Origin: a virus
Reading direction: 5' to 3' (one strand)
IMG/VR virus record: IMGVR_UViG_3300043353_000018
Coordinates: 1-22,371 of that record
DNA: 22,371 nt
The position numbers were made by a program, and so were the translations under genes. Under the pieces are notes generated by a model. That model saw only the letters and a program-made list of their open reading frames with translations, did no database searches and was not told the origin of the DNA. This document shows positions 2,330-22,259 of the stretch, piece after piece (the stretch's first letter is position 1; every line of letters starts with the position of its first letter).

Positions 2330-3175
2330 TTAGAGCGTCGCCTCCACGTATTGGAACGTCAGCACATGCCCTGCCGTGGGAGCGGTCGTAAACACCACGG
2401 AATCGCGTGTGCTTGCCAAGCTGAACAGCGTTGGGTCTACGATAAGCCCTGCATCGCTGATTGCCGTCACATATTCCGCAAGATCCGGCAAGAAAAACGT
2501 CGTCGTGGACCCATCTCCGAGCAACCGATCCACGCCGATGACCGTCCCGGCGCCCGTGCTCGACGCCGCAATCGTGACGCTGGCCGCACCGTTCGTGATG
2601 GTGATGCCGGTGCCTGCCGTCAATGTTCCGAGCGTGACTGAACCGTCCGAGCTTTTCCCGATTGGGACTTGTCCATCCGTCGCGGCCACCACTTTGATGT
2701 CGGCCCCGCCGTTGCCGACCACAAGTTCATTCGCCGTCAGGGCGCCGGCATGCGTGACGGTGCCCGTGGCGGCAATCGCCACATCCTGCGCGAAACTCAG
2801 ACGACCCTTGGCGTCAACGGTGAACTGCCCCACGTGCGTGCTGTCGCCATAGGTGCCAGGAGTCACGCCGGTCGTGGACAGCGTCGTCACGTTGCCATCG
2901 AACGGCGCCGTGATGTCGCCACTCAGCGCGGCTCGAGAGACGGAGGCTTGTCCTGCGACGGCGAGGTTCCAAACGTTGGAATTGCTGTTCGTGACGACAC
3001 GCGCGTTGGGGAGGTCACCATTCGCCACACCGACGAGGTATTCCGCGTTAGCCGGCGCGTTCCCGCCTCCACTCCCGCCCCCGAACAACTGGGCGAAATA
3101 CATCACCCACGGAACGGTCCAATTGCCCTCTTTGGTCAGCGGCGCGTTGTTAAGCGGTGGATAGTCTGTCGGCAT
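2330..3175 (-). CDS. Tail fibre protein with proximal anchoring segment
   Basis: 281 aa. ATG overlaps the previous stop (TGATG). The start MPTDYPPLNNAPLT, then WTVPWVMYFAQLFGG, is the short helical head seen on many phage tail-fibre or spike proteins, and is likely the attachment end. The rest is Gly/Ser/Thr/Val-rich fibre sequence (AEYLVGVANGDLPNARVVT, ALSGDITAPFDGNVTTLS, GDSTHVGQFTVDAKGRLSFA, TAGTGITITNGAASVTI), followed by a small C-terminal domain after residue 210 (VDRLLGDGSTTTFFLPDLAE...). It probably forms the shaft, with the 479-aa neighbour as tip. No catalytic residues are recognised. Confidence 0.8.
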   Translation of the reverse strand: MPTDYPPLNNAPLTKEGNWTVPWVMYFAQLFGGGSGGGNAPANAEYLVGVANGDLPNARVVTNSNSNVWNLAVAGQASVSRAALSGDITAPFDGNVTTLSTTGVTPGTYGDSTHVGQFTVDAKGRLSFAQDVAIAATGTVTHAGALTANELVVGNGGADIKVVAATDGQVPIGKSSDGSVTLGTLTAGTGITITNGAASVTIAASSTGAGTVIGVDRLLGDGSTTTFFLPDLAEYVTAISDAGLIVDPTLFSLASTRDSVVFTTAPTAGHVLTFQYVEATL

Positions 3176-4779
3176 CAGTTATCCCCACCCTCTGCGTCGA
3201 AGTAGGCGCCCACCAGATTCCAGAGGACAGGGTCTGTGCAGGAGACCTCGAAGACCCAGTCCCGTCCTTGCCCCCACTGCCACGCGTTGATGCGGTTGAA
3301 GAACTCGCCCACCCTGCCGGCCGTCAGGCGCCGTTCATTGCCCCACGTAAACCCGCCGTCCTTGCTGGCGCGAATCATCACCAGCGGATCGGGCGTATCG
3401 GCGGTTCCAACTCCTGGCTGCATGTCCACCGCGAAGAGGTTGATACGGACCCTGGTCTGGAGGCCGCCCTTCTCGTTCCAGACAATCGGCGCGCGACGGA
3501 GTCTCCTGCGGACCACTTCGCGGGTCCGGAAGACCGGTTCCGGCGGCGGCGGCGGCGGGACCACGGCCTCGCCAATCGCGAACCAGAGCACCTCGCAGGC
3601 GGTCCCACCGACGGAGTCCCACGTCATCGTAAACGTGCCCGCGTCGTCGTCCAGGTCCGTCAGACTCGCCACCGAGTTGAACGTGGTCGAGGCGCCATTC
3701 GGCGTGGCGAACCGGACCATCGAATCATCGGAGATATAGCGCGCGCCAAAGGCCGGCCCGACGTTCCCGTTCGTCTTCTCTCCCGCCCAGAACCCGCCCT
3801 GACTCGCAATGCTCGAGGCCCATCCCATCGAGAACTGCCCAATGGGAGATTGCGTCGAGGAACTCGCCGCATAGCCCGTGCTCAGCGTGAGCAGCCATTT
3901 AATCGCAAAGCCCACCGTGATGGTCTGACTACCTGTGGCCAGCGGTTGCGTGAACGATCCGGCGGCGGTCTGGATCAAGTCACCCGAGATCGCAATCGGC
4001 TGAGAGACCGCGGCGCTGGGATTCGCAATCGTGAAGGTCGTATCGGCCCATGCCGAGACCGTCGGGCGGCTGCTCTGGGTGCCCGCCCCGCCGTCCAGAT
4101 CGACCGTCCAGCCGTCTGTCCGCTGGGCGCTCCAGTTGTTGCCCTGACTCACCACATACAACGCATCGGTCCCGTAGACCCCGTCGCGCGTGGCAAAGCC
4201 CCATGGGATATTCTGCCCGCCCGTGCCGGTCGCAATCGATCCAGAGGAGCCTGGAACCGGCACGTTCAGCGCGAGTAAGCCCTGCGGCTTGGAGGGCGTC
4301 GTATACGTCCCGCTGGTGTAGTTCGTGAACGTAAAGTCGATGTCATCCCCACCGAACACCGTCACCAGCAGGGAATCGCCCGTGCGGTTGTTCGTGCTGT
4401 AGAGGATGTCGAACTCCCCCGACCGAATCGCAGAGATCTTGGCTGAGCGTTCGACGTGGACGGTGCCAAAGTTGTCCGTCCATTGGTCGATGATCGACGC
4501 ATCTCCACCGGATTCCGACGTGCCAGACGGCTTGAAGTTGAAGATGGAGTAGCAATCCGCGACAGTGCGGGCTGAGCGCACGCTACCAGTATCCACGCCG
4601 CGAAAGTCGGCATACCACGGGAACGCCACGTTGCCAGCGGTGAGGGTATTTATCGCCGCGTAGCCGCTCTGGAAGATGAACAGCTTCCCGATGAACGATC
4701 CCCCGCCATCGGCCACACCCGTCACGGTCTGGGTGCCGGTGCCGGAACGCGCCGCAAAGGACAGGACGCACGATCTCAT
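3175..4779 (-). CDS. Spike/fibre protein carrying a gp10-type C-terminal domain
   Basis: 534 aa from the ATG that overlaps the previous TGA (ATGA); a start 45 nt further upstream is possible, but its first residues are an Arg-rich antisense-like run. Residues about 1-200 and 265-410 look like two copies of a beta-sandwich module (GTGTQTVTG...GKLFIFQSGYAA and ATGSQTITVGFAIKWLLTLS..., the second ending DDAGTFTMTWDSVGG). A Pro run (VVPPPPPPEP) links to residues 416-534, a 119-aa domain 87/119 identical to the end of the upstream beta-helix protein. That domain (RRLRRAPIVW, DPLVMIRASKDGGFTWGNE, CTDPVLWNLVGAYFDAE) resembles the C-terminal part of P22 gp10-type proteins. It is likely a tail appendage docked by this domain; the function is inferred. 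Confidence 0.75.
   Translation of the reverse strand: MRSCVLSFAARSGTGTQTVTGVADGGGSFIGKLFIFQSGYAAINTLTAGNVAFPWYADFRGVDTGSVRSARTVADCYSIFNFKPSGTSESGGDASIIDQWTDNFGTVHVERSAKISAIRSGEFDILYSTNNRTGDSLLVTVFGGDDIDFTFTNYTSGTYTTPSKPQGLLALNVPVPGSSGSIATGTGGQNIPWGFATRDGVYGTDALYVVSQGNNWSAQRTDGWTVDLDGGAGTQSSRPTVSAWADTTFTIANPSAAVSQPIAISGDLIQTAAGSFTQPLATGSQTITVGFAIKWLLTLSTGYAASSSTQSPIGQFSMGWASSIASQGGFWAGEKTNGNVGPAFGARYISDDSMVRFATPNGASTTFNSVASLTDLDDDAGTFTMTWDSVGGTACEVLWFAIGEAVVPPPPPPEPVFRTREVVRRRLRRAPIVWNEKGGLQTRVRINLFAVDMQPGVGTADTPDPLVMIRASKDGGFTWGNERRLTAGRVGEFFNRINAWQWGQGRDWVFEVSCTDPVLWNLVGAYFDAEGGDN
3178..3534 (-). repeat. gp10-type C-terminal domain, copy B
   Basis: Coding direct repeat of 119 codons. It matches copy A at 4779-5135 in the upstream gene at 87 of 119 residues by my alignment, without gaps. 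Both copies end four or fewer codons from their stop. Confidence 0.85.
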
Positions 4780-6860
4780 GCGGTCCCGCCTTCGGCGTCG
4801 AGATACGCTCCCACCACGTTCCACAAGACCGGATCGGTGCAGCTAATCTCAAAGACCCACTGCCGTCCGCTACCCCACTGCCATGCATTCAGCCGCTGGA
4901 CATACCGCCCGACACGGCCTGCGGAAAGTTGCCGCTCGCTGCCCCACGTTCGACCACCGTCACGCGAGGCGCGCACCATCACCATCGGGTCAGGAGAGCC
5001 ACTGGTCCCAACTCCCGGCTGCACATCGACGGCAAACAGGTTGACCCGCACGCGGGTCTGGATGCCCTTGTCTTCCTTCCAGACAATGGGCGCTCTCCGG
5101 AGCCGTCTGCGGACCACATCGCGCAGGTGATAGACCGGCGACGGTGTCGGAGGCGCGGCGATTGTTGTGAAGCTCCAGAGCGGGCCAGATGTCGAGCCGC
5201 TGTCGTTGGTCGCCGTGATACGCCAGTAGTAGGTGCGCCCATTGATCAGCAGCGAGGGGAACGTATAGGTCGTCCCGGCCTGCCCCGTCGAAACGGTTGG
5301 CGGCGAGATCGTGAACCCGAACGCCACATCGTAGGTGTCGGTGTTCCCGCCTGTCACCCACGTCATATCCGTGTCGATGGCGACATCGATGGCCCCATCG
5401 GCAGGACTGGGCGTAGTCGGCGCTCCTGGCAGCGTGGTTGGCGGCGCAGACCCGAATCGCGCGCCGATGTCATCGCCGTCCGTCGCGGCGTTGTGATACG
5501 GCGAGGTCACCTGCAGTTCGTAGTCGTTCGCGGCGCTGTCCGTGAACTCCACGTCGGCCTCAGTGGCCGGGAAGAAGTTGTCAGCCGGATAGCTCGACTC
5601 AAATGCTCCCAGAATCAGGACGTTCTTGAGCATCGAATAGGGGATAGCAAAAGCCGTCAGCGCCGCGGTGCCGAGATTGCCCAACGTGTCGAATATCGCG
5701 AGCCCGTTGTCGTAAAAGATATTGTTCGTCAGCGTGAAGTTCGTGTTGGGCGCATCCACGAAGTAGATCGAGACGGTCCCGCTGTTAATCACCGTGTTGT
5801 GGTCGATGGTGATGGCGTTTCCGCTGTGAATCTGCGCGAAATGCCCCGCCCCGGTCCACGTCCCGCCGTTGATGTCATACGCCACGTTGTCGCGAATGAC
5901 GAGGTTATTCATCGTCACCGAACCAATACCCGACCGATCATCTTTCCCGAGTATGTTGAACAGCGAACCGGAATGCGTAATCGTGTTGTTCGTGCAGGTG
6001 ACGTTCTGGATGGTCGCCCAGTTGTTATCGCCTTCTTCGTTTCTGACCGTGAAGACGAGCGCATAGCCGCTCTGCCCTTCGCCGCCCCAGTTATAGGAGA
6101 AGTCGTTCGTGTCAATCAGGACGTTGACGCCGGTCTTGAGTTCCAGCAGGTTCTTGATGTTGTAGCCCGCCCCGCGCCATGCCTCCAGCTTCGTCACGGT
6201 GTTGTTCGTGAACGTGATGTCGGTCGGCAACAGGTCGGGAATCTGTATCGTGGCCCCGCCGACAAGGAAGTTCTCAGTCGTGGCTTCCAGGTAGCAGTTG
6301 TCAATCGTCCACGGTCCCGGACCGTTCCAGCCGGCAATCGCCTGCGCGTCCTGTCCCGTCTTCTTGATGTCGCTGATGTAGCAGTTCTTGATGGTCGTCG
6401 TCGCGGACTGCAGCGAAATGCCGCGCTTCTGGCCGTAGGTCGCATCCCCGTGGATGTAACAGCGGTCCACGACGAGATTAGACGGCACGGATGCGAGGGT
6501 GTTCTGGGCGCTCGAGCCATCCCCCAGCGTCAGGATGTCGTTGTCTCCCGTAGGCGTGGCGAGCAACTCAAGGCCGAGCAGCGTCCAGTTCTGGCACGCG
6601 GCCACCGTCGCGAACGCAGGGCCGCCACCGGACGCCGGTTGAATCTTGGCGAACGCAGCCGCCGTCGCTGGCGTGACACGCACGCCCGGAGACGGCAAAC
6701 TGCCGCCGGATTGAATGATGATGGCCGCCCCGCTGTGAATCGGCAGGTAGTAATTGCCAGTGAACGTCGCGGAGGCGTCGAGTTCCAGAATATCCCCGCC
6801 CGCCGCGGCGTTGATTGCGGCTTGCAGATCATCGCCAGCGTGGACGAGGATGGTCGCCAC
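4776..6860 (-). CDS. Right-handed beta-helix spike with Fn3-like and gp10-type C-terminal domains
   Basis: 694 aa. It starts with GTG directly after the TAA of the gp10-like gene. Residues about 1-460 are a parallel beta-helix: an HAGDDLQAAINAAAGGD opening and many short NN turns (FTNNTVT, CTNNTITHSG, LTNNIFYDNG), as in pectate-lyase-like and phage spike folds. Residues about 478-570 form an Fn3/Ig-like module (PSPADGAIDVAIDTDMTW, YYWRITATNDSG, LWSFTT). Residues 576-694 are the 119-aa gp10-type domain shared with the next gene. It is probably a tail spike that binds or cleaves surface glycan; I see no defined catalytic triad. The helix and Fn3 parts resemble proteins of environmental bacteria, suggesting capture from a host, though this is inference. 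Confidence 0.8.
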   Translation of the reverse strand: MATILVHAGDDLQAAINAAAGGDILELDASATFTGNYYLPIHSGAAIIIQSGGSLPSPGVRVTPATAAAFAKIQPASGGGPAFATVAACQNWTLLGLELLATPTGDNDILTLGDGSSAQNTLASVPSNLVVDRCYIHGDATYGQKRGISLQSATTTIKNCYISDIKKTGQDAQAIAGWNGPGPWTIDNCYLEATTENFLVGGATIQIPDLLPTDITFTNNTVTKLEAWRGAGYNIKNLLELKTGVNVLIDTNDFSYNWGGEGQSGYALVFTVRNEEGDNNWATIQNVTCTNNTITHSGSLFNILGKDDRSGIGSVTMNNLVIRDNVAYDINGGTWTGAGHFAQIHSGNAITIDHNTVINSGTVSIYFVDAPNTNFTLTNNIFYDNGLAIFDTLGNLGTAALTAFAIPYSMLKNVLILGAFESSYPADNFFPATEADVEFTDSAANDYELQVTSPYHNAATDGDDIGARFGSAPPTTLPGAPTTPSPADGAIDVAIDTDMTWVTGGNTDTYDVAFGFTISPPTVSTGQAGTTYTFPSLLINGRTYYWRITATNDSGSTSGPLWSFTTIAAPPTPSPVYHLRDVVRRRLRRAPIVWKEDKGIQTRVRVNLFAVDVQPGVGTSGSPDPMVMVRASRDGGRTWGSERQLSAGRVGRYVQRLNAWQWGSGRQWVFEISCTDPVLWNVVGAYLDAEGGTA
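4779..5135 (-). repeat. gp10-type C-terminal domain, copy A
   Basis: Coding direct repeat partner of 3178-3534, at the very end of the beta-helix gene (RRLRRAPIVWKEDKG through AYLDAEGGTA). Confidence 0.85.
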
Positions 6861-7991
6861 TTACCCCGCGCCCATCTGGACGAGCGTCGTCGTCGCGAGG
6901 TTGTAATCCTGCACGTAGACCGCTCCGCTTTCGCGGTCTCCCACCAGATGCTGGCCGAAACAGAACGTGTGGCAGCGGACCACGTCGGGAATCGTCACCA
7001 GTGCGACGGGATCCCAGAGGTCACGGGAGTGCCACTGCTGCGTGGCCGCGTCGTAGGTGTAGGTTGTGTCGAGGTCGGGCACCAAGAGGCTGTAGAAGGT
7101 ATGCCCATTCTCTTGGTATCCCCATCCGAGCGTGTCCGCGAGCCGGTTGGACTGGCTTAAGCGGTATTCAATCGCATGGGTGGAGATGCGCGTCGGGGCT
7201 GAACCCACACCCGTGCCGCGGTAGACGATCCCGTCGCCCTGATCATTGCCACCGAGCCAGAAGGCGGCGTTGTCGCCCACCCAGAAGGAGAACGGCGCCC
7301 GCGTCCCCACTTGCATGAGCGAACCAGGGATCGGCGCGAAGATGCTCGAGCCGCCGATGTCGGCCCATACGACGCCCGTCTTGGAGCCGAGGAGCCACAA
7401 CTGGCCGTAGACCGGGAACATACTCAGGATGAAGTCGGAACTCTGCGAGAGTTGCGCGACATCCAGACCGCTCCACGTCGTCCCGTCCTCCAGCGAACTC
7501 CAGAAGAAGGTGTTGCTCAGCGCCTCCAGCGCGAGGAAATAGCCATCAATAAAACAGCCCATTGAGCAGGGATTCGGGAAGTTCGGGTCTGTGATCGGCG
7601 TCAGCGTCCCGGCGATGAGGTCAAAGGTATAGCCCAACCCGCCAGACGTGATAAACAACTGGTGCCCAGCAGACCCGTTGCTGCAGATCGTGGCCGGCCG
7701 TCCATCGAGCGCCACCGCGCCGATCAGCGAGGTCGTATGATTGCTATGCACTTCGTAGAACCCGCGCGCACCCACCGCGAAGCAGCGCCCATCCTGCGAG
7801 AACAAGGCCCGCACGGGACCATCATTCAGGACGACGAACGGCTCGAGACCCGGCACTGGCGCTAACCACGCAGGTGCCTTGCCCGTTCCTGGAGCGGACA
7901 ACTCCAGAAACCAGTTCCGAGTCTCCTCGCTGTCCACGGAGGGACTCGCGAGCGCATTGGTTGGCCCAATGAAGCCGGGATAGAGACTCAC
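6861..7991 (-). CDS. P22 gp10-like packaged-DNA stabilisation protein, shortened
   Basis: 376 aa with a GTG start 7 nt after the previous stop. MSLYPGFIGPTNALASP, then ETRNWFLELS and APVPGLEPFVVLNDGPVRALF, is the typical opening of gp10/phage-stabilisation proteins: a beta-propeller-like body that plugs the tail hub below the gp4 ring and carries tailspikes. Later blocks fit too (FIDGYFLALEALSNTFFWSSLEDGTTW, LWLLGSKTGVVWADIG, QENGHTFYSLLVPDLDTTYTYDA, GAVYVQDYN). P22 gp10 is about 470 aa. Here the protein stops just where family members continue into a block with RRAPH..., SDDGG.TW and DPV motifs. A matching ~119-aa block is found instead at the ends of the next two genes; 376 + 119 would restore the usual length. 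Confidence 0.8.
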   Translation of the reverse strand: MSLYPGFIGPTNALASPSVDSEETRNWFLELSAPGTGKAPAWLAPVPGLEPFVVLNDGPVRALFSQDGRCFAVGARGFYEVHSNHTTSLIGAVALDGRPATICSNGSAGHQLFITSGGLGYTFDLIAGTLTPITDPNFPNPCSMGCFIDGYFLALEALSNTFFWSSLEDGTTWSGLDVAQLSQSSDFILSMFPVYGQLWLLGSKTGVVWADIGGSSIFAPIPGSLMQVGTRAPFSFWVGDNAAFWLGGNDQGDGIVYRGTGVGSAPTRISTHAIEYRLSQSNRLADTLGWGYQENGHTFYSLLVPDLDTTYTYDAATQQWHSRDLWDPVALVTIPDVVRCHTFCFGQHLVGDRESGAVYVQDYNLATTTLVQMGAG

Positions 7992-8258: not shown

Positions 8259-9002
8259 CTAGCGCCCACCGGGCGATGATTGGCTGTCCGAGAGAATGTT
8301 GTAGCCCGCCTGATTGCCGATGGTCAGCGCCGCATCGACGCCGAGGAGTCCCGGTTCGACGTTGGGCCGCTTCATCACCGCCCACGCTTCCTGTGCGTCC
8401 TTGAGCAGATCCGGCGTCACCGGACGACCGAATGGCCGACACAGCCGCTTCGCCAACTGATACATAAACGCATCCTGGTAGCCCGATGGACCAAGCAGGA
8501 CGGTATCGAGCGAGACCGGCACGGTCACGGCTTGCGGCGCATACAGATACAGCGTCATCTCCTGCGTCGGCTGCGGCCAGATGAAGATCGAGCCGAGCAG
8601 CGTATCGATGGCGGTCTGGTAGAAGAACTGCTGCGGGAGACCGGACTGCAGGCTCTTGATGGTCTGCAGCGCATAGCTGTCCTGATCCATCGGACCCATG
8701 ACGACCTCAACCTCCGGACTCGAGCCGGGATTGACGTAGGTCATCGTGTTGATCCAGACCGGACGCTGTGTCGTGATGTCCGCGCCGGCAGGCCCGATGG
8801 TCTGCGTCGAGGTCGAGGACGGCCACGTAATCTGCGTGCGGGACTGCGTCGAGAGCGTGAGCCGATCGGCCGCCCATGCATCAATCTGGTTCTGAAACCG
8901 CAGCAAGGCGAACGCGCCCTGCGCGGCCGTCATGGCCTCGTCTTCGCCGAGCACGCCGATTTCGCGCAGGGCATCCACGCAAATCGCGCGGACGGTCGCC
9001 AC
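8259..9002 (-). CDS. P22 gp4-like head-tail adaptor protein
   Basis: 247 aa with a GTG start directly after TAA of the previous gene. The N-terminus VRAICVDALREIGVLGEDEA, followed by ALLRFQNQIDAWAADRL, is the helical signature of gp4-type adaptors, which bind under the portal after packaging and open the tail assembly path. A beta-rich middle (PEVEVVMGPMDQDSY, QQFFYQTAIDTLLGSIFIWP, LYLYAPQAVTVPVSLDTVL) and a C-terminal helix (YQDAFMYQLAKRLCRPFGRP, LLKDAQEAWAVMKRPN) follow. It is longer than P22 gp4 (166 aa) but close to related long adaptors. Order relative to portal and gp10-like protein supports the call. Confidence 0.75.
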   Translation of the reverse strand: MATVRAICVDALREIGVLGEDEAMTAAQGAFALLRFQNQIDAWAADRLTLSTQSRTQITWPSSTSTQTIGPAGADITTQRPVWINTMTYVNPGSSPEVEVVMGPMDQDSYALQTIKSLQSGLPQQFFYQTAIDTLLGSIFIWPQPTQEMTLYLYAPQAVTVPVSLDTVLLGPSGYQDAFMYQLAKRLCRPFGRPVTPDLLKDAQEAWAVMKRPNVEPGLLGVDAALTIGNQAGYNILSDSQSSPGGR

Positions 9003-11992: not shown

Positions 11993-12679
11993 CTACCCTA
12001 CCTTCGATTCCACACCAGACTGCTTCGCCGCCTCAAACATCGCGCGTCGCTTCGCTGACCACGGCTTGCCACGCTTCGTGGCTGCCATTTTCCACGCCCA
12101 CGTAGACGTGTCTCGGCCAGTCATCAACGCCCGCATATGGGCTTTGTATTCGTCGGTGTGTTTCTTGCCGGTGTTGGAGAGACTGATCTTCTGACAATGC
12201 TCAGGCGAATGCTTGCGCCCACGTAGCGTGGCGGCTTGGGTCGGATTCGACTGGCCGCGGCGAGCAGCCGCGATGTTCGCCCGATGCGTATCTGACTTCG
12301 GACGACCGCGCATGGCCTCTGCCATCTTCAGCCGTGAGGCGTCGGTATGACGGAAGCCATCGCGTGGGCCTGAGCCAGCACGTCGAGCGGCATTGTAAAG
12401 ATCGGTGGATGCGTCGATATGGGTTTGCTCTGCGGCTATGGCGTCGTTCCGGCTTGCACATTCGGAGACGAACGACCAGGAAAACGCTTTCCCGCCATAC
12501 TGCGACCAATCCATCTGCAACGCATCGTTGGGATGATTCCCATTGGTGAGTTTGGACAGATGCTCACGCCAACGGCGAGGCACATCGGAACTGCTCCCGA
12601 TGTAGACCTTACCCGTGACGAGATTGGTGATGGCGTAGACGCCGATCAAGCCGTAAACCCTCTGAGGGTTGTCGCGCAT
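11993..12679 (-). CDS. GIY-YIG homing endonuclease with NUMOD-type repeats
   Basis: 228 aa. The nuclease domain is residues about 11-100: GVY at 13-15, YIG at 26-28, the Arg-containing RRWREH at 35-40, and a catalytic-type Glu in AAEQTHID at about 84, then LYNAARR. From about 108 come NUMOD3-like DNA-binding repeats (FRHTDASRLKMAEAMRGRPK, DTHRANIAAARRG, KHSPEHCQKISLSNTGKKHT). It introduces a site-specific break that copies its own gene into empty alleles. It sits between scaffold and coat, a typical conserved target, and has lower G+C (31/60 in one sampled line) than its neighbours. Whether it is free-standing or inside an intron is open: I find no group I core. Start by first ATG; the domain begins 10 residues later. 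Confidence 0.85.
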   Translation of the reverse strand: MRDNPQRVYGLIGVYAITNLVTGKVYIGSSSDVPRRWREHLSKLTNGNHPNDALQMDWSQYGGKAFSWSFVSECASRNDAIAAEQTHIDASTDLYNAARRAGSGPRDGFRHTDASRLKMAEAMRGRPKSDTHRANIAAARRGQSNPTQAATLRGRKHSPEHCQKISLSNTGKKHTDEYKAHMRALMTGRDTSTWAWKMAATKRGKPWSAKRRAMFEAAKQSGVESKVG

Positions 12680-13790: not shown

Positions 13791-14243
13791 TCACCTAGAC
13801 CTAGCGCCAGCCATTATCATGGTTCGGCCAGATGGCACCATGAACGCGTCCGTCCGCGTATTTGATGCTGCCGGGACGTCGATGTCCGCTGGCGGCACTG
13901 ACGTTGGAAGTAGATAGTTTGGCCTCGTGAACAGTTCAAGCGCCCTATTTCTACGGCGCTCTCCAAGCCACGGCCAGAACTTAATAAGCACGAGGTGGCA
14001 CTTCTGGTCCCCGTGTATGCGCCACTCAAACATCGTCTTGTGATGCTCGTGTTCCTTCGTGAACCGTTGACGAATACGGCCTATTCCTACCGCAGAAACG
14101 AACCGCTCCATGACGTCCAGGTCCGACATGCAGCACGCCAGCACTGGCGTTTCTGGGTTTCCGCTATGAGTGATGCATCCTTCGCCCTCGAAGAGACCAG
14201 CAGCCCAGGCTATTTCGGTCAAGCTCCGTGTCATCTCGTTCAT
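13791..14243 (-). CDS. LAGLIDADG-type homing endonuclease
   Basis: 150 aa with ATGA overlap to the preceding gene. The motif IAWAAGLFEGEGCI at residues 11-24 is a LAGLIDADG helix with acidic residues E19/E21, followed by a strand region (SDLDVMERFVSAVGIGRIRQ, HKTMFEWRIHGDQKCHLVLI) and FWPWLGERRRNRALEL, the usual single-motif layout. Such proteins dimerise to cut DNA. The C-terminal 45 residues are disordered-looking. G+C is lower than in flanking genes (31/60 in one sampled line). It lies between small genes after portal and the scaffold. No intron features are visible, so it is taken as free-standing. Confidence 0.75.
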   Translation of the reverse strand: MNEMTRSLTEIAWAAGLFEGEGCITHSGNPETPVLACCMSDLDVMERFVSAVGIGRIRQRFTKEHEHHKTMFEWRIHGDQKCHLVLIKFWPWLGERRRNRALELFTRPNYLLPTSVPPADIDVPAASNTRTDAFMVPSGRTMIMAGARSR

Positions 14244-21704: not shown

Positions 21705-22259
21705 TTAGACCGGAGGCAAGGAAACAAATCGCCCTGTCTCGGGATTTATAGGAGGCATGGAGCGCCGCGGCCTCCGATTGTTCGCCTGAAGCGTCGGATC
21801 GGCCCACCTAACATTCCCAGACATGTAGCCGAGGTCGTTGTTAATCCTGTCAATAGATGCCCGTGGAAACGGCGATGGCCCCAACTCTCGTTCAATATCA
21901 GCTATATACCGCTCTGGGCGCTGCCATTCAGGTGCGACCGAAATACCGCGCCCACCGTAATAACTGAATTGCTTATGGGAGGGGTCACAGCATCGACCCA
22001 TCATGTGCGCCCAACGGCTATAGAGGGGATGCTTCGAGACGCCATGTGTGCGGCTCTGCTGCGACATACGCTCGCGGGTATAGCACCCACAGGATCGCGT
22101 GGCATCACCGGGGCGCAAACTATTCGACCATACCGTGACTTCCGCGCCGCAGGCGCAGCGGCAGACCCACATGGGCACACCGCGCGTCTTATCAGCGCCA
22201 CGCCGCAGAATCGTCAGCCGACCGTAGACCCATCCCGTCCTATCGACAGCATGATTCAT
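21705..22259 (-). CDS. HNH endonuclease (phage zinc-ribbon type)
   Basis: 184 aa; ATGA overlap with the upstream small ORF. Residues 1-60: RTGWVYGRLTILRRG, then VCRCACGAEVTVWSNSLRPG and SCGC, an N-terminal Cys module (C33, C35, C37, C57, C59). Residues about 72-125: HGVSKHPLYSRWAHMMGRC and FSYYGGRGISVAPEWQ. Residues 135-163: SIDRINNDLGYMSGNVRWAD and QANNRR, the core of this well-known phage HNH group. It nicks or cuts DNA for homing, or assists packaging when next to terminase; here two genes separate it from the terminase region. G+C is lower than average (29/60 in one sampled line). Confidence 0.85.
   Translation of the reverse strand: MNHAVDRTGWVYGRLTILRRGADKTRGVPMWVCRCACGAEVTVWSNSLRPGDATRSCGCYTRERMSQQSRTHGVSKHPLYSRWAHMMGRCCDPSHKQFSYYGGRGISVAPEWQRPERYIADIERELGPSPFPRASIDRINNDLGYMSGNVRWADPTLQANNRRPRRSMPPINPETGRFVSLPPV

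Follow-up and report, generated by a model that had tools for sequence, protein, structure and literature searches.

The viral record IMGVR_UViG_3300043353_000018 of IMG/VR, analysed over positions 1 to 22,371 (hereafter the window), encodes a tail hub, or nozzle, of the phage P22 gp10 type that is made in pieces. The gp10-like hub body ends short of the C-terminal domain (CTD) of its family, and a copy of this domain is instead the C-terminus of each of the two following proteins. The pieces are homologous to fused gp10 chains and the split is conserved among relatives. The arrangement is probably best explained as a split hub system in which the CTD would be supplied in trans as the platform of the hub, carrying with it a passenger that is thereby anchored at the hub; a receptor function of these passengers, and mixing of the two proteins, would extend this interpretation.

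The hub body (6861..7991, minus strand, 376 amino acids, aa) consists of a beta-propeller and an N-terminal segment and is devoid of the family's CTD. Its TAA stop codon is followed at the next base by the GTG start of CTD-bearing protein 1 (4776..6860, minus strand, 694 aa), in which sequence features suggest a beta-helix-like passenger and an FN3-like segment (together passenger 1, 5136..6860, minus strand), a Pro-rich linker and CTD copy 1 (4779..5135, minus strand, residues 576-694). The ATG start of CTD-bearing protein 2 (3175..4779, minus strand, 534 aa) overlaps the stop codon of protein 1. This second protein is made of a fast-evolving passenger 2 (3535..4779, minus strand), with a PPPPPPEP linker at its end, and CTD copy 2 (3178..3534, minus strand, residues 416-534); the mechanically called open reading frame (ORF) started farther upstream and had 549 aa, 534 aa being the ATG-start version. 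A head-tail adaptor gene of the gp4/gp11 type (8259..9002, minus strand; phrog_637, head-tail adaptor Ad3, 1.4e-5; phrog_12985, 2.9e-27) lies upstream of the gp10-like gene, as expected for the gp10/Hc3 family. The window also contains a P22-like structural module, with matches to the P22 portal (2e-128) and coat (3e-27).

An earlier note, made from the letters of this DNA, had claimed that the gp10-like protein stops at 376 aa before the C-terminal block of its family, and that a 119-aa block ending both following genes is this missing part. Both claims held. On phrog_578 (head closure Hc3, 486 positions) the 376-aa protein covered positions 13-362 (expectation value, E, 3e-60), and the C-termini of proteins 1 and 2 covered 382-473 and 374-472, respectively (E 1.7e-10 for each). 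The gp10/Hc3 family has its CTD in the same chain, and here the chain ends at about profile position 362. The count of 87 identical residues out of 119 between the two terminal blocks was reproduced exactly. Among PDB entries, the best matches of the body were the 7eeq and 9vyg hubs (6e-14). A tblastn search of the 118-residue block against 50,697 phage records returned 30 records, all of them in gp10-family genes annotated as stabilization, Hc3, TTPB or hypothetical.

The link to P22 gp10 was obtained only via a fused-family profile, based on an alignment of 24 fused gp10s from phages and IMG/VR; a first fused-family alignment was too diverse to serve as a scanning profile and was set aside. 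The 24-member profile matched residues 38-470 of the 472 residues of P22 gp10 (probability 99.6, E 1.1e-23). When aligned to it with hhalign, the split gp10s occupied columns 5-359 (probability 100) and the free domains columns 365-473 (probability 99.5, E 1.7e-22), body and free domain tiling the fused family with a gap of five columns. Direct hhalign comparison of the shallow CTD or split-gp10 alignments with P22 gp10 gave no match, and a spike-CTD scan of genome contigs found none. The structure model of the free domain, a beta-sandwich of about 119 aa, had a predicted local distance difference test score (pLDDT) of 75 and a predicted template-modelling score (pTM) of 0.67. Foldseek ranks 1-3 of this model against the PDB were the hubs of Pan3 (9vyg, 3e-5), Pam1 (7eeq, 6e-4) and P22 (8u10, 8e-3). 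Another P22 chain superposed on the model at 2.4 Å (template-modelling score, TM, 0.67 by query), and the named top matches in BFVD were mostly 'Bacteriophage P22, Gp10' proteins. On these profile alignments and modelled folds, the free domain is homologous to the terminal part of fused gp10 chains, that of P22 among them. The earlier note had named the lack of any profile or structural match to gp10 C-termini as counter-evidence; matches of both kinds were obtained.

The same data bear on the possibility that the similarity to gp10 is convergent, arising from an Asp-box motif common to sialidases and other beta proteins. The DGG.TWG mark, one of those listed in the earlier note, is an Asp-box, and the Asp-box part of the profile does match sialidases (1e-5). 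This motif is not diagnostic alone; the identification of the domain was based on the whole 110-residue alignment and not on the motif. Convergence is contradicted by an alignment of about 107 columns that reaches the very end of gp10 and by best fold matches that are hubs, and can be practically discounted. The domain alignment includes residues 368-442 of the solved Pan3 hub. Membership in the Sialidase/BNR group was rejected, the domain having a single Asp-box-like segment and not several in a six-bladed propeller.

Body and domain profiles were run over 154 loci, among which eight distinct split loci were found: the window, L001, L002, L007, L042 (with its near-copy L043), L044, L045 and L046. 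The domain was the C-terminus of the next gene in 8/8 of them, with a start that abuts or overlaps the gp10 stop, suggesting translational coupling. Relatives with the same short gp10 end and no such domain nearby had been named in the earlier note as counter-evidence; in all seven others with this short end, the next gene carries the domain. At L045 (4001-6697) the split gp10 has about 500 extra residues at its broken end, so that both sides of the break carry additions, and at L007 (5451-7535) a 694-aa ORF devoid of the hub domain separates the split gp10 from the adaptor region.

Among 145 complete gp10 ORFs (some loci having been fetched repeatedly), 79 had an intact contiguous domain, and most others were fused chains in which one CTD loop held an insert of 32-118 aa; the latter include L008, L012, L052, L065, L083, L112 and L119. 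Eight Gluconacetobacter prophages (L141-L145, L148, L149 and L151) had 730-738 aa inserted in the CTD loop, their gp10 of about 1206 aa lying at 4989 to about 8615. In hubs generally, this loop seems to be a favoured site of insertion. Contrary to the split loci, L008, L012, L052 and the Gluconacetobacter gp10s (L141-L151) keep an unbroken chain, with an insert within the CTD loop and no alternative passengers. Two further loci were not counted as splits: L146 (G. liquefaciens), where the long gp10 frame is interrupted (785 + 561 aa), and L082 (3932-6028), a gp10 body with a CTD cut after its first third and about 300 aa of NMF..A..FNQ.I..W-type repeats instead. L137, devoid of the second CTD half, holds a masked N stretch and was left out.

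In a tree of gp10 bodies (85 rows), the eight split proteins formed one clade (100/99) nested among fused gp10s, which would fit one origin of the split followed by its long maintenance. The domain tree agreed weakly, split CTDs being monophyletic at 68/74, because the domain is short. An ancestral fused gp10, made of the N-terminal segment, propeller and CTD, was broken at the propeller/CTD seam. The earlier note had spoken of a domain detached from gp10 and duplicated by moving onto spikes. The split and the second copy were found, but the order body-passenger-domain is kept, and this points to fission and insertion at the seam and not to relocation. In the window clade, this split by insertion was followed by the appearance of another domain copy, joined to a new passenger; for the order of the CTD duplication and the split from L007, either alternative was compatible with the data (approximately unbiased test, p 0.37).

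Ratios of nonsynonymous to synonymous substitution rates (dN/dS) were 0.04-0.09 for the body and 0.035-0.12 for both domain copies, with 0.04-0.12 for copy 2 across relatives; the body and both CTD copies are under purifying selection. A defect, through decay or misassembly of gp10 or disruption of its gene by a mobile element, could be imagined as the cause of the split in a metagenomic record with a homing-endonuclease gene among its structural genes. It is contradicted by the eight distinct loci, their single clade and the purifying selection on all three parts, and is highly improbable. The family alignment, the eight loci and the single clade likewise speak against chance, an assembly error or a mere Asp-box resemblance, all of which were rejected. 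The distribution of the domain also bears on another alternative. Trimerisation or chaperone domains are usual at the C-terminus of phage spikes, and the CTD stands at the C-terminus of probable spikes; it could thus be a folding or trimerisation module on the two proteins, its hub role having been lost. However, the loss of the CTD from gp10 is linked to its gain next door in 8/8 loci, and the domain is still conserved to the same family profile, making this explanation very unlikely.

One of the two passengers evolves rapidly against a conserved body and CTD. Identities among the window, L001 and L002 were 91-94% for the body, 82-94% for the domain copies and 87-91% for passenger 1. Passenger 2 was only 33-46% identical among the three records, while the CTD of protein 2 was 82-92% identical, and its dN/dS was 0.34-0.48 with synonymous sites close to saturation. 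L044 and L045 share 69% identity in the body and 72% in the domain, and their passengers are unrelated; over the whole split clade, N-terminal passengers were of five unrelated kinds, most members having Pro-rich linkers before the domain. Passenger 1 had no homologue among the 50,697 phage records, and no known relative of passenger 2 was found outside the split clade. Protein 1 showed a weak FN3-type match at residues 446-566, and a search of Pfam, NCBIfam and PHROG revealed no tailspike head-binding domain in it. P22 gp9 is characterised by an N-terminal head-binding domain and, after it, a right-handed beta-helix; protein 1 starts directly in the passenger, its sole hub-type domain is C-terminal, and as to a beta-helix it gave only a sub-threshold DUF5123 match. 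The AlphaFold2 model of the whole 534-aa protein was uninformative (pLDDT 41). The label 'spike', which the earlier note had given to both genes, is plausible for the beta-helix gene and was not retained for protein 2, with its passenger confined to the clade. To judge from its sequence, passenger 1 is a probable receptor or polysaccharide module.

A mechanistic framework is provided by T7 gp12 and SU10 gp17, which form hexameric hubs with a central propeller and a C-terminal domain serving as the platform that binds the dodecameric adaptor; this platform is completed by N-terminal strands, and in T7 the fibre dock lies on the outer surface, between propeller and platform (PMC6702177, PMC9509320). 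The N-terminal segment of gp10 is retained in split bodies, and an adaptor homologue was present in 7/7 split relatives (in L002 only as a 3' fragment at the contig edge). Since the break lies at the T7-like seam, the N-terminal segment is kept and the adaptor gene is present, a platform supplied in trans is the simplest interpretation. A passenger inserted at the propeller/platform seam would have split the gp10 gene, and the freed domain would act as the platform seating the hexameric hub on the dodecameric adaptor, the product of 8259..9002 being its expected partner by analogy. Each gp10 body would keep its N-terminal platform segment and take up one platform domain in trans. This domain, through the Pro-rich linker, would anchor the passenger on the outside of the hub, at the site of the T7 fibre dock, and the passenger may then contact the host surface.

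In another possible explanation, the domain derived from gp10 has taken on a new use as an anchor, through which spikes would dock beside the hub, for example on the adaptor or between hub subunits, leaving the platform position unfilled, and the gp10 of the split clade would manage with a new platform or none. The N-terminus of the P22 spike adjoins gp4 and gp10 (PDB 8u10, title), and the modular, linker-tethered design at the CTD junction would suit such docking. Yet no other gene with this function was identified next to gp10, split bodies keep the N-terminal segment by which the T7 platform is completed, and body and CTD diverge in step across split relatives. This alternative appears unlikely, though it is the most serious competitor of a platform supplied in trans.

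Several points weigh against the split-hub interpretation. Structures were modelled as monomers, and we infer the binding of body and domain in trans. The equation of the P22-type CTD with the T7/SU10 platform would follow from chain order, fold class and the published papers, and the nearest T7-size nozzle match to the domain model was weak (9vvr_V, E 0.054). Receptor binding by the passengers is suggested by their variability and linker design; searches of Pfam and NCBIfam gave no passenger match, save a sub-threshold DUF5123 in protein 1 (1.3e-4). The clade is known from genes alone, no member being cultured. Finally, L007, L042, L044, L045 and L046 have one CTD gene each, and a two-protein system is thus limited to the window clade, with three records.

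Within that clade, the presence of two platform-bearing proteins would allow the six positions to be shared. The mixed trimers suggested in the earlier note found no support; the hub is a hexamer, and any mixing would take place among up to six platform positions. It is possible, though somewhat doubtful, that the hub is a mosaic, in which the two competing receptor proteins fill the six platform positions in trans, as plug-in parts recognised through fold complementation with the hub. With interchangeable platforms, the products of the two genes would compete for these positions or divide them, and each phage would have two receptor specificities; single virions, or virions of one clone, could carry differing ratios of the two.

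In the usual view, the receptor proteins of podoviruses form trimers of their own that are anchored by the N-terminus. Here it seems that the anchor lies at the C-terminus and is part of the tail hub itself, and the hub would be incomplete in the absence of a receptor protein. These uncultured short-tailed phages would thus make their hub in two, with the missing end on one or two highly variable neighbour proteins. If this is true, a phage could exchange or combine probable receptor-binding parts, each of which would plug into the hub, hub assembly would be tied to receptor loading, and the exchange of unrelated receptor modules (five passenger kinds in one clade) would be explained. It would also represent a natural split-protein design. 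Annotation is affected as well: hub proteins seem truncated and receptor proteins have no recognisable name. No description of a split-hub arrangement was found in the open-access literature searched; most subscription journals lie outside this coverage, and any claim of novelty carries this limit.

Comparison with solved hubs underlines the difference. P22 gp10 (packaged DNA stabilization protein) is homologous to the split hub in both body and CTD and occupies the same slot after a gp4-type adaptor, but P22 makes it as one 472-aa chain and attaches its spikes through a distinct protein, gp9, whereas the hub described here is split, with its CTD ending one or two other proteins. The closest solved relatives for both body and CTD, the hubs of cyanophages Pan3 ('stabilization protein', 9VYG) and Pam1 ('needle head', 7EEQ), are unsplit, with fused chains of 446 and 442 aa. 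T7 gp12 and SU10 gp17 likewise have a propeller and an adaptor-binding C-terminal platform, with the T7 fibre dock at the same seam, but they are unsplit, and a dock domain or loop holds their fibres, which have no covalent link to the platform (PMC6702177, PMC9509320). In prophage L177 of a gammaproteobacterial genome (2877-5986, minus strand), the gp10 chain of 961 aa, which includes an Ig/LamG-like insert, breaks off within the CTD, and an overlapping 74-aa ORF encodes the second half of this domain. This gp10 is also made in two pieces, but the break is inside the CTD and the passenger stays on the gp10 chain; such an independent fission supports the tolerance of the hub for manufacture in pieces.

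The last 70 positions of phrog_19101 (function unknown, 595 positions) correspond to the same C-terminal domain. Judged from its profile and not from member sequences, phrog_19101 may be a further case of a passenger fused to this domain of the hub. Its positions 8-516 match open frames of 1000-1500 aa, mostly in alphaproteobacterial genomes, which we take to resemble gene-transfer-agent tail proteins.

Elsewhere in the window, a GIY-YIG homing-endonuclease-like gene with a NUMOD3 motif (11993-12679, minus strand) lies between the scaffold and coat genes, and the ORFs at 13791-14243 and 21705-22259 resemble homing endonucleases by eye, with no Pfam match. The two genes that follow the split-hub genes, at 2330-3175 and 890-2329, have in common a 33-bp block (1896-1928 and 2736-2768, 85% identical) encoding a GTVT..G.LT-type motif, and the gene at 2330-3175 has weak matches to tail-fibre PHROGs.

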